DNA from: Natroniella sulfidigena
Lineage (GTDB): Bacteria > Bacillota > Halanaerobiia > Halobacteroidales > Halobacteroidaceae
Direction: 5' to 3'
Assembly (NCBI RefSeq): GCF_023223645.1
Contig: NZ_JALKBY010000001.1
Coordinates: forward strand, 124,001 to 188,000
Length of the DNA stretch: 64,000 bases
In this document: in pieces, positions 45,298 to 48,803 of the stretch
Numbering within the stretch: the first letter of the stretch is position 1
Layout: each line of letters opens with the position of its first letter
The notes under the pieces: generated by a model
Seen by the model: only the letters and a program-made list of their open reading frames with translations
Told to the model about the DNA's origin: nothing
The model's database searches: none
Translations under genes and position numbers: made by a program

Positions 45298-45648
45298 ATG
45301 GAAAGAGATGTTGAGAAGGTTGCCAAAGAGATTGCTAAAGCTGCTGATGATAAAAAAGCTGAAGATATAAGAATTTTGAATGTAAAAGGTATCTCTATTT
45401 TGGCCGATTATTTTATAATCTGTAGCGGTACTTCAGATACTCAAGTACAAGCAATTGCTAATTCAATTGAGCATATTTTAGAAGAACAAGAGATTTATGT
45501 TAAAAATAAAGAAGGTATTGATATTGGAAATTGGGTTGTATTAGATTATGCAGATGTAATTGTACACGTATTTCATCAAGAACAGAGAGAATATTATAAG
45601 TTAGAGAAATTATGGGGTGACGCTAAAGAATTAGAATGGCAAGCATGA
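45298..45648 (+). CDS. rsfS: Ribosome silencing factor RsfS
   Basis: The protein is 116 residues. DIRILNVKGISILADYFIIC, GTSDTQVQAIA and VVLDYADVIVHVFHQEQREYY are typical of RsfS/Iojap. It binds L14 and blocks subunit joining during starvation. An AGGGGG site precedes ATG 45298. Confidence 0.95.
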   Translation: MERDVEKVAKEIAKAADDKKAEDIRILNVKGISILADYFIICSGTSDTQVQAIANSIEHILEEQEIYVKNKEGIDIGNWVVLDYADVIVHVFHQEQREYYKLEKLWGDAKELEWQA

Positions 45649-45682: not shown

Positions 45683-45711
45683 TTGACAAAAATTAATTCT
45701 TAATTTATAAT
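45683..45711 (+). promoter_or_regulatory. Consensus sigma-A promoter of the leuS leader
   Basis: Perfect TTGACA (45683-45688), 17-bp spacer, perfect TATAAT (45706-45711). Transcription should start near 45718, at the edge of an octamer repeat. Confidence 0.92.
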
Positions 45712-45714
45712 GTT

Positions 45715-45746
45715 GATAGTTGAATAGTTGAATAGTTGAATAGTTG
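45715..45746 (+). repeat. Octamer tandem repeat at the transcription start
   Basis: About four copies of GTTGAATA-type 8-mers in a row, lying just downstream of the leuS promoter. Confidence 0.85.
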
Positions 45747-45868
45747 TATAATGGCTATGATAAGGAGTAGTAAGCAGCAGCTGAACTCGCCTTGGAGCTA
45801 TATGAGTGAATTTATAGTAGCTTATACGGTTGACAGCCGTTATCTTGTTTTAGAGATGATATGAAACT

Positions 45869-45944
45869 GGGGATATAGCTCAGCTGGGAGAGCGCTTGTC
45901 TGGCAGACAAGAGGTCAGCGGTTCGAACCCGCTTATCTCCACCA
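45869..45944 (+). tRNA. tRNA-Ala (GGC anticodon)
   Basis: A complete 76-nt cloverleaf with encoded CCA. The acceptor stem GGGGATA/TATCTCC contains the G3-U70 pair that marks alanine tRNAs. D arm GCTC/GAGC, anticodon arm CTTGT/ACAAG with loop CTGGCAG (GGC), T arm AGCGG/CCGCT with TTCGAAC. All stems pair fully. It is on the leuS leader transcript. Its 3' ACCA can also pair with TTTTTGGTG near 45974. Confidence 0.97.
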
Positions 45945-46130
45945 AAAACTTTTATTAAAAGAACGCATTGAAGTTTTTGGTGTTAGGTCATCGAGACCGT
46001 CACACCAAAAACTACAATTAATAAAACGTAATGAGGTTTTTGGTACTAGGGCATCGAGCCCGTCGCATTAAATCTTTGCAGAATAAAACTTTGCTTATAA
46101 ATACAAAGTTAGGTTCTTGTGATCATCGTG
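45940..46130 (+). repeat. 63-nt tandem repeat, two good copies and one degenerate
   Basis: Each unit (45940-46002 and 46003-46065) has a hairpin ACCAAAAACT...TTTTTGGT followed by a small hairpin with an ATCGA loop: GGTC-ATCGA-GACC in unit 1 and GGGC-ATCGA-GCCC in unit 2. The stems differ by compensating changes. A third, weaker unit with GATCATCGTGCC follows to about 46130. Confidence 0.85.
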
Positions 46131-46168
46131 CCAGTCTTCATATCAACTTAGGGTGGTACCGCGAGAAA

Positions 46169-46216
46169 CTCTCGCCCCTATTAAAGATTTTTCTTTATTG
46201 GGGGTGAGGGTTTTTT
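46169..46216 (+). terminator. T-box regulated terminator
   Basis: CTCGCCCCTATTAAAG pairs with CTTTATTGGGGGTGAGG around TTTTT and is followed by six T residues. The left arm overlaps the antiterminator. Confidence 0.88.
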
Positions 46217-46331
46217 ATAATTTATAAATAATTAAATTTTCTCTTGCTTTAGGAAGTAAAAGGATATAAGTTATTTTTTGGGAGTAACTAATTAAATGTT
46301 GTAAATTAATTGAGATCAAAGGAGGATGGAG

Positions 46332-48803
46332 ATGAAAGAGGAGTATAATTTTAAAGAAGTAGAAGCACAATGGCAGCAGTATTGGGAAGAAGAGCAGGTC
46401 TATAAAAGTGAGATACAAGACAAAGATGAATATTATGTATTGGAGATGTTTCCTTATCCATCAGGTAATCTACATATGGGACATGTTAGAAATTATTCAT
46501 TAGGTGATGTATTTGCTCGTTTTAGAAGGATGGAAGGATATAATGTTTTACATCCGATGGGTTGGGATGCTTTTGGACTTCCAGCTGAAAATGCAGCAAT
46601 TGAGCGGGATATTCATCCTAATGACTGGACTTGGGACAATATTGAAAATATGAAAGAACAATTTAAGATGTTAGGACTCAGTTATGATTGGGAGCGGGAG
46701 GTAGCTACTTGCCATCCTGATTATTATCGTTGGACACAGTGGTTATTCTTACAACTTTATAAGGAAGGGTTGGCCTATAAGGAAAAATCAGTTGTTAATT
46801 GGTGTCCAAGCTGTCAGACAGTATTGGCCAATGAGCAGGTAATTGATGAAGAGTGTGAGCGTTGTGATAGTCAAGTTATTGATAAGGAATTAGAACAATG
46901 GTTCTTTAAGATTACTGACTATGCTGAACAATTATTAGATGATCATCATTTATTAGAAGACTGGCCACAGCGGGTTAAGACGATGCAGAAAAATTGGATT
47001 GGACGTAGTGAAGGAGCAGTAATTGAGTTTGCTATAGAAGGTAGCGATGAAGCTTTAGAAGTTTTTACTACTCGTCCAGATACAATTTATGGTGCGACTT
47101 ATATGGTGTTGGCCCCTGAACATCCTTTAGTTGAAGAGTTAGTGACAGGAACTGATCAGGAAGAAGAGGTTAAGGAATTCATTGCTCAGATCAAAGAGCA
47201 AGATGAGGAAGAAAGAACCGGTTCTGATAGTGAAAAGGTTGGAATTGATACAGGAATTAAAGCAATTAATCCTGTAACTGAAGAGGAAGTTCCAGTAATG
47301 ATTGCTAATTATGTCTTGATGGATTATGGAACTGGTGCTATTATGGCAGTACCTGCTCATGATGAGCGTGATTTTGATTTTGCTAAGAAGTATGACTTGC
47401 CAATTAGGGTTGTTATTCAGCCAGAAGATGAAGAGTTGACAGCTGAACAGTTAGAAGAAGCATATACAGAAGATGGAGTAGTTGTTAATTCAGAGATTTT
47501 AAATGGTCTGTCAGTAGATGAAGCTTTCGATAAGATTATTGCTTACCTTGAGGAAGAAGGCTTAGGCCAAAAGGAAGTCAACTATAAATTACGAGATTGG
47601 TTAATCTCTAGACAGAGATATTGGGGGACACCAATTCCGATTATTTATTGTGATGATTGTGGTATTGTAGAGGTACCTGAATCAGATTTACCTGTTGAAT
47701 TGCCAACTGATGTTGAATTTACAGGGACGGGCCAATCACCGTTAGCTAAAGCAGAAGATTTTATAAAGACAACCTGTCCTGAATGTGGACAAGAAGCAGA
47801 GCGGGAAGTAGATACGATGGATACATTCGTTGATTCATCGTGGTACTATCTAAGATATACCAGTCCAGATTTTACAGAGTCAGCCTTTGATAGTAAGCGA
47901 GCAAATTACTGGATGAATGTCGATCAGTATATCGGTGGAATAGAGCATGCGATTTTACACCTGCTCTATTCTCGATTCTTTATGAAATTCTTACATGATC
48001 AAGGATATGTTGATTATAAAGAGCCTTTTGGAGATCTTTTAACCCAAGGAATGGTGTTATTAGATGGTGCTAAGATGTCTAAATCAAAAGGAAATATCGT
48101 TGATCCTTTAGAAATTTTAGATAATTATGGTGCTGATGTAGCTCGCTTATTTATTCTGTTTGCTGCTCCACCAGAAAGAGATCTAGATTGGAGTGATGAA
48201 GGAGTAGAGGGAGCAGAAAGGTTCTTAAATCGTGTCTGGAGATTGGTTGCTCAAAATATTGACCAGCTTAAAGATGTAACTGGAGATTTTGAAATAACAA
48301 CAGATGCTGATAAGAAATTACATCGTCAGTTACATGTTACGATTAAAGATGTAACGGTTGATGTTGGGGAGAGAAAGCAGTTAAATACAGCAATCAGTGC
48401 AATTATGGAGTTAGTAAATAGTGCTTATAAATATTTAAATGATGTTCAAGAGCTTAATTATCAATTATTAAGAGCTGTTGTAGAGAAAATTATTTTAGTT
48501 TTGGCCCCATTTGCTCCTCATATGACAGAGGAGTTGTGGTCTCAATTAGGGTTTGAGGATAGCGTTCATCAACAGAGTTGGCCCGAGTATGATGAAGAAG
48601 CAATTAAGAAGGATGAGATTACAATTGTAATACAAGTTAATGGTAAGGTCAGAGATAAGGTAGAAGTAGCTGCTGATATTAGTGAAGATAAATTAAAAGA
48701 GCTTGTCAAGAAACAAGATAATGTACAACGTTATTTAGAAGGAAAAGAGGTAGTTAAGGAGATTGTTGTACCACAGAAATTGGTTAACTTAGTAGTAAAG
48801 TAA
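46332..48803 (+). CDS. leuS: Leucyl-tRNA synthetase
   Basis: The protein is 823 residues, usual length. HIGH-type motif [15 protein letters not shown] near 40-54, CP1 editing domain with [20 protein letters not shown] and [17 protein letters not shown], then KMSKSKGN. A zinc-like [14 protein letters not shown] ... CERCDS insertion is present. The chosen ATG 46332 is 6 bp after AAAGGAGG; the ATG at 46326 touches that site. Expression should be governed by the upstream T-box. Confidence 0.97.

Follow-up and report, generated by a model that had tools for sequence, protein, structure and literature searches.

The window, by which we mean the whole stretch of 64,000 nucleotides that was analyzed, carries a T-box leader upstream of leuS and, inside that leader, an intact tRNA-Ala(GGC) gene. 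The features of the locus are as follows.

45298..45648, + strand: rsfS (ybeB), a conserved upstream neighbor (ORF; a homologue lies 5' of the nested T-box in many relatives)
45683..45711, + strand: promoter TTGACA-17-TATAAT ahead of the T-box, the tRNA, and leuS (12/12 consensus match)
45748..46182, + strand: T-box leader of leuS (RF00230; cmscan, 77.1 bits, E 6.6e-17)
45762..45793, + strand: ultrashort Stem I, AAGG...CCTT, with an AGTA motif (T-box alignment; conserved in the window's family, f1)
45786..45788, + strand: specifier CUC (Leu) (sequence; GAACTC also in most relatives)
45795..45842, + strand: Stem II with S-turn and Stem IIA/B (CGGTTGACAGCCGTTA, 45827-45842) (T-box alignment)
45854..45865, + strand: 5' arm of Stem III (complementary to 46137-46148; covaries in relatives)
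45869..45944, + strand: tRNA-Ala(GGC) with encoded CCA and G3-U70 (ARAGORN; Rfam RF00005, 66.2 bits)
45940..46065, + strand: two 63-nt repeats beginning at the CACCA end of the tRNA (a decayed third copy runs to ~46135)
46137..46148, + strand: 3' arm of Stem III, with the AA of the RRRxG-Stem III-AA motif (alignment, arm complementarity, sequence)
46150..46163, + strand: T-box sequence AGGGTGGTACCGCG, antiterminator, with the UGGU bulge at 46154-46157 (alignment, sequence)
46166..46217, + strand: intrinsic terminator hairpin and T-run (inverted arms 46166-46213 plus TTTTTT)
46326..48803, + strand: leuS, the regulated gene, whose start is possibly the ATG at 46332 (ORF)

RF00230 aligned to the window leader over the full model (positions 1 to 219) with a single 271-nt insertion, which falls in the loop of Stem III, and the intact tRNA-Ala(GGC) sits within this insertion. 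A preliminary description of this DNA had placed the tRNA between two parts of a T-box. The two RF00230 halves do flank the tRNA, but "between" is imprecise, and the position is exactly the Stem III loop. The leader's 77.1 bits are below the RF00230 gathering score of 93, which we attribute to the 271-nt insertion and the very short Stem I. Besides the full-model match, the leader contains the other elements that define a T-box, i.e., a specifier, the Stem III flanks, a UGGN bulge, and a mutually exclusive terminator. The specifier context is GAA-CTC-G at 45783 to 45789 in the RF00230 alignment, which bears out the Leu CTC specifier proposed earlier for the 5' region, and the codon fits the leuS gene downstream. 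The reading of the 5' part as Stem I stands insofar as this part aligns in RF00230; the stem is, however, ultrashort, and the distal AG-bulge/terminal-loop module, which is typical but not universal, is absent from the window's T-box alignment. The possibility that the 5' part is not a T-box at all was rejected, RF00230 aligning from model position 1. Complementarity between the two arms of Stem III (45854-45865 and 46137-46148) reaches 92% over 12 nt; of the flanking motifs, the window retains the AA and has an imperfect RRRxG with one deviation (GAGAT). At the very start of the leader (45716-45747) there is a tandem 8-bp repeat, ATAGTTGA, of which the sister species G001 has fewer copies.

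Both a separate promoter for the tRNA and a complete T-box downstream of it, which the preliminary description had named as evidence that would count against it, were sought. The sole 12/12 promoter match is at 45683-45711, 5' of the entire T-box, and promoter matching detected no second consensus promoter for the tRNA at the window locus; a weak 9/12 match (45991-46018) is located 3' of the tRNA start. RF00230 found no complete T-box 3' of the tRNA in the window. At the genome's other T-box hits above the Rfam cut-off, there is no tRNA within 1.5 kb.

The sequence of the nested gene has the cloverleaf, GGC anticodon, G3-U70 pair, and CCA of a tRNA-Ala, and ARAGORN and RF00005 agree on an intact tRNA-Ala(GGC) with encoded CCA, as first described. 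No other tRNA-Ala(GGC) gene was found in the window's genome, which answers the question of whether this is the only copy. Processing of the nested tRNA by RNases P and Z had been proposed; the CCA-encoding tRNAs of Bacillus subtilis do not need RNase Z, and because CCA is encoded here, RNase Z need not act. The CCA end and A73 are present in all 69 nested tRNA copies analyzed, and U is found at position -1 in 66 of these 69 compared with 41 of 93 other tRNAs (controls from ten of these genomes). This pattern is consistent with what is expected for genuine RNase P substrates. A phage search returned nothing beyond similarity to tRNA-Ala.

The leuS leaders of relatives, which the preliminary description had proposed to search, were examined for RF00230 and tRNA, with LeuS searches in 61 genomes and inspection of the DNA upstream of leuS. 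The same nest is present in 6 of the 8 genomes of the window's family (G000, G001, G003, G005, G006, and G007), and all six preserve Stem II, Stem IIA/B, Stem III, the T-box sequence, and a competing terminator. The Stem III loop of G006 and G007 consists of little besides the tRNA, which lies 19 nt ahead of the T-box core; unconstrained folding of this compact type of leader stacks the tRNA stems on Stem III, and the G006 leader scores 94.1 bits with RF00230, above the gathering score. Of the other two genomes, G002 has a T-box of the short-Stem-I type whose Stem III is plain and holds no tRNA, and G004 has lost the T-box; in both, the nest is gone and tRNA-Ala(GGC) is located in an ordinary tRNA array. 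Each of the 13 genomes of the window's order yielded exactly one tRNA-Ala(GGC). The specifier of G001 (L015) reads GAA-TTT-G, not GAA-CTC-G, and its leuS T-box may either be read in a shifted frame (UUG, Leu, +1) or be losing specificity. In four genomes of the sister family f2, the order is promoter, tRNA-Ala(GGC), a terminator resembling a T-box terminator, and leuS. The fifth f2 genome, G010, differs in that two long ORFs of 910 and 1103 aa (L160:1034-7094) separate tRNA-Ala(GGC) from the terminator of leuS; they resemble type III restriction-modification genes. In remoter families of the class, leuS is preceded either by a T-box that has a full Stem I but lacks a tRNA or by no T-box at all.

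For the phylum as a whole, we used a pattern that is blind to tRNA identity, namely, the 3' end of any CCA-encoding tRNA located 15 to 45 nt ahead of GGGTGGTACC. A gap this short to the T-box core means that the tRNA must be inside the T-box. The pattern matched 67 of 398 genomes (41 of 267 genera, 18 families), while a control with the reversed pattern gave zero matches in the 398 genomes. All 63 callable nested tRNAs are tRNA-Ala(GGC), and at least 59 of the 63 precede leuS. Widening the gap to 46 to 76 nt added one match, again an Ala-type tRNA, before a leuS-like start. A nested tRNA of any other identity was therefore rejected. Most of the nested leaders elsewhere in the phylum set have a GAACTC specifier and an AGAGAG motif, and the same type of promoter lies ~175 to 270 nt upstream of most nested tRNAs. 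When 12 nested loci from other families were tested, 9 gave an RF00230 hit above the gathering score across the tRNA with RF00005 inside it, and nested loci of other families reach up to 142 bits. Altogether, at least 19 families of Firmicutes-type bacteria have the nest, and named organisms that carry it include Peptococcaceae BRH_c4a and BRH_c4b and Thermosyntropha. Since it recurs in dozens of genomes, it is neither chance nor an assembly error. Among the matches listed, the nested gene is the sole tRNA-Ala(GGC) in most of the genomes judged (about half of the 67), and three f88 genomes have a second copy. In leaders of family f32 (L206 to L213), only 41 to 42 nt separate the specifier from the tRNA, which is insufficient for Stem II and Stem IIA/B.

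The helix that holds the tRNA is supported by covariation. With the register fixed by the RRRxG motif on one side and AA on the other, the 35 distinct pairs of Stem III arms have 190 of 210 standard pairs, compared with 160 ± 3.3 (maximum, 172) in a null of permuted partners (2000 shuffles). Two-sided changes are seen at the third position (C-G versus T-A) and at the second (G-C versus A-T). The RRRxG and AA flanks, which are kept in relatives, define the discriminator domain, which senses aminoacylation, and are required there (PMC7583486). Stem III was also assessed by duplex energy, with 17 of 69 at p<=0.05; this test is weak because the conserved arms also pair across species.

On a tree of LeuS fragments, the nested state occurs on scattered deep branches but is strongly clustered (17 changes versus 54 in shuffles), and the starred branches force at least 6 changes of state; rsfS is upstream of the nested locus in many cases. 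The window's class forms a clade on this tree that takes in a Halanaerobium record and is thus probably Halanaerobiia. Recurrence in at least 19 families argues that the nest is old and has been kept, and an old origin followed by many losses is the simplest account of this distribution; some transfer or repeated independent insertion is possible. Loci L066, L099, and L091 consist of promoter, tRNA-Ala(GGC), terminator-like sequence, and leuS with no recognizable T-box, as if the T-box had decayed around a retained tRNA in separate lineages, and in the decayed cases (f2, L066, and L099), the tRNA remained between promoter and terminator. L188 retains Stem III, the tRNA, and the antiterminator and has lost Stem I. 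We suggest that entrenchment is the main reason why the nest persisted, the nested gene being in most cases the sole tRNA-Ala(GGC), and that the Stem III loop tolerates insertion.

The order in the sequence is one promoter, the 5' half of the T-box, the tRNA inside Stem III, the antiterminator/terminator, and leuS. Based on this order, the reading that we favor and regard as likely is that the leuS leader is a two-function RNA, i.e., a class I transcriptional T-box with a tRNA-Ala(GGC) gene in the loop of its Stem III. The single promoter would start a transcript of T-box, tRNA, and leuS, and because the tRNA precedes the terminator, it would be complete before RNA polymerase arrives there, so that tRNA-Ala would be made at every initiation. 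Under plentiful leucine, the T-box terminator would also serve as the tRNA terminator, while binding of uncharged tRNA-Leu to the specifier and the T-box bulge would stabilize the antiterminator and allow polymerase to proceed into leuS. Cutting by RNase P would release the tRNA and separate the products, and with the tRNA looped out from Stem III, the T-box halves could remain joined by Stem III pairing after the cut. The antitermination decision is probably taken cotranscriptionally, before processing. A bolder form of this reading, possible although in our judgment doubtful, is a split riboswitch in which RNase P removes the central tRNA and the halves, with the Stem III helix as their sole link, continue to sense tRNA-Leu; the timing of the RNase P cut would possibly be tuned by a G(-2)U(-1) leader. 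If true, this would represent a novel architecture, a split riboswitch built around a functional RNA gene and conserved in at least 19 bacterial families.

Some features speak against the two-function reading. In the window, 206 nt lie between the tRNA and the T-box core, versus 15 to 41 nt in most other cases, which would allow more time for an early RNase P cut, and RRRxG is imperfect there. The absence of the distal Stem I module, which binds the tRNA elbow, and the UUU specifier of G001 suggest that T-box function may be weakening in the window's lineage. Carried further, the T-box there would be a decaying relic, and the locus would now be essentially a tRNA-Ala gene, a terminator, and leuS, leaky terminators perhaps being enough for leuS expression. 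Losses of the T-box in f2, which kept the tRNA, and in G004 are in line with decay of this kind. We nevertheless consider it unlikely, given that Stem II, IIA/B, Stem III, the T-box sequence, and the terminator are intact in the six nested genomes and that G002 retains a short-Stem-I T-box even without the tRNA. Moreover, a truncated Stem I is functional in actinobacterial T-boxes, where the Stem II domain is then essential (PMC7583486).

A different possibility is that processing is part of the switch, with an RNase P cut before the terminator disabling or resetting the T-box, so that a race between tRNA-Ala maturation and tRNA-Leu sensing gates leuS and the nest is kept for regulation. The spacing from tRNA to T-box core is mostly tight (15 to 41 nt), and 46 of 69 nested tRNAs have a G(-2)U(-1) leader compared with 18 of 93 control tRNAs, an enrichment that is inflated because the nested copies are related by descent. 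In Escherichia coli, leaders with G(-2)U(-1), a dinucleotide able to pair with A73-C74, are among those that RNase P cuts most slowly, which is attributed to pairing with the 3' RCCA (PMC9433436). The excess thus hints at slowed RNase P cutting. In the window's family, however, positions -2 and -1 are AU, UU, or CU instead of GU, and 4 of the 6 nested genomes have a long trailer. With Stem III pairing also able to keep the halves together after cutting, we find this explanation decidedly improbable.

It is quite implausible that the cis tRNA-Ala is a structural element or ligand of the T-box, for example, through competition of its ACCA for the UGGU bulge. These two sequences are complementary, and A73 and CCA occur in all nested tRNAs, but from what is generally known of T-boxes, one would not expect an antiterminator to be stabilized by a 3' end that is internal and extended. 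No specific conserved contact was found, and the anticodon stem of the tRNA varies among copies. The earlier proposal that leucine supply governs tRNA-Ala(GGC) output fared worst and can scarcely be credited: a shared transcript, as the single promoter implies, would suit it, but the tRNA lies 5' of the terminator and would be complete in terminated and read-through transcripts alike, so that termination does not remove it.

The two-function reading can be set against known systems. The nested leader shares with the class I transcriptional leuS T-box (RF00230) the specifier, the Stem II S-turn, IIA/B, Stem III, the UGGU bulge, the terminator, and leuS, and differs in having a complete tRNA gene of another amino acid in Stem III; the window leader differs further in that its Stem I is without the distal module. 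In this respect it resembles short-Stem-I T-boxes, e.g., that of actinobacterial ileS, in which Stem I is truncated and without the tRNA-elbow-binding motif. Those actinobacterial T-boxes are translational, however, whereas in the window an intrinsic terminator is present and a tRNA is nested in the leader. Ordinary tRNA-mRNA operons likewise have one primary transcript for tRNA and mRNA that is cut by RNase P, as would be the case here; in contrast to these, the window tRNA is inside the regulatory RNA that controls the mRNA. A search of the open-access literature on T-boxes, leuS, and Stem III found no description of a T-box with a tRNA gene in Stem III, and the parts of the TBDB paper that we consulted do not mention a nested tRNA. 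This agrees with the preliminary statement that no such T-box is described and falls short of proof, the comparative T-box papers of 2008-2009 being outside this scope; we put the chance of an earlier mention, for example in those papers, at about one in four.

A housekeeping RNA gene is nested here in a riboswitch, within the very domain that senses aminoacylation, and Stem III can thus bear ~76 nt or more of independent structure with its covarying helix retained. "Curious insertions" have been noted in T-boxes (PMC7583486), and such insertions can evidently be genes, so T-box annotation tools may split or miss nested leaders. In many of these bacteria, the tRNA that decodes GCC/GCU would depend on the leuS promoter. 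That the nest is restricted to tRNA-Ala(GGC) and leuS, even in deeply separated lineages, indicates that the arrangement is old and was retained by entrenchment, and the order of the RNase P cut and the antitermination decision becomes a testable question.

The repeats behind the tRNA in the window were considered as a key element of the arrangement and rejected, for they also occur behind other tRNAs and before acpP and are absent from compact relatives; indeed, trailer repeats of the window type are absent in most nested cases. Tandem repeats that start with the tRNA 3' end and lie behind the gene are known from E. coli tyrT. The window's repeats are like these in their tandem order from the tRNA 3' end and differ in that their units are shorter, hairpin-forming, and dispersed behind several tRNAs. 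Each of the 63-nt repeats (45940-46135) could form alternative hairpins, either TTTTTGGTGT...ACACCAAAAA or GGTC-ATCGA-GACC. The element is found behind other tRNAs in the window's order, e.g., tRNA-Lys and tRNA-Val, and in G006 (L177) two tandem copies are located before acpP.
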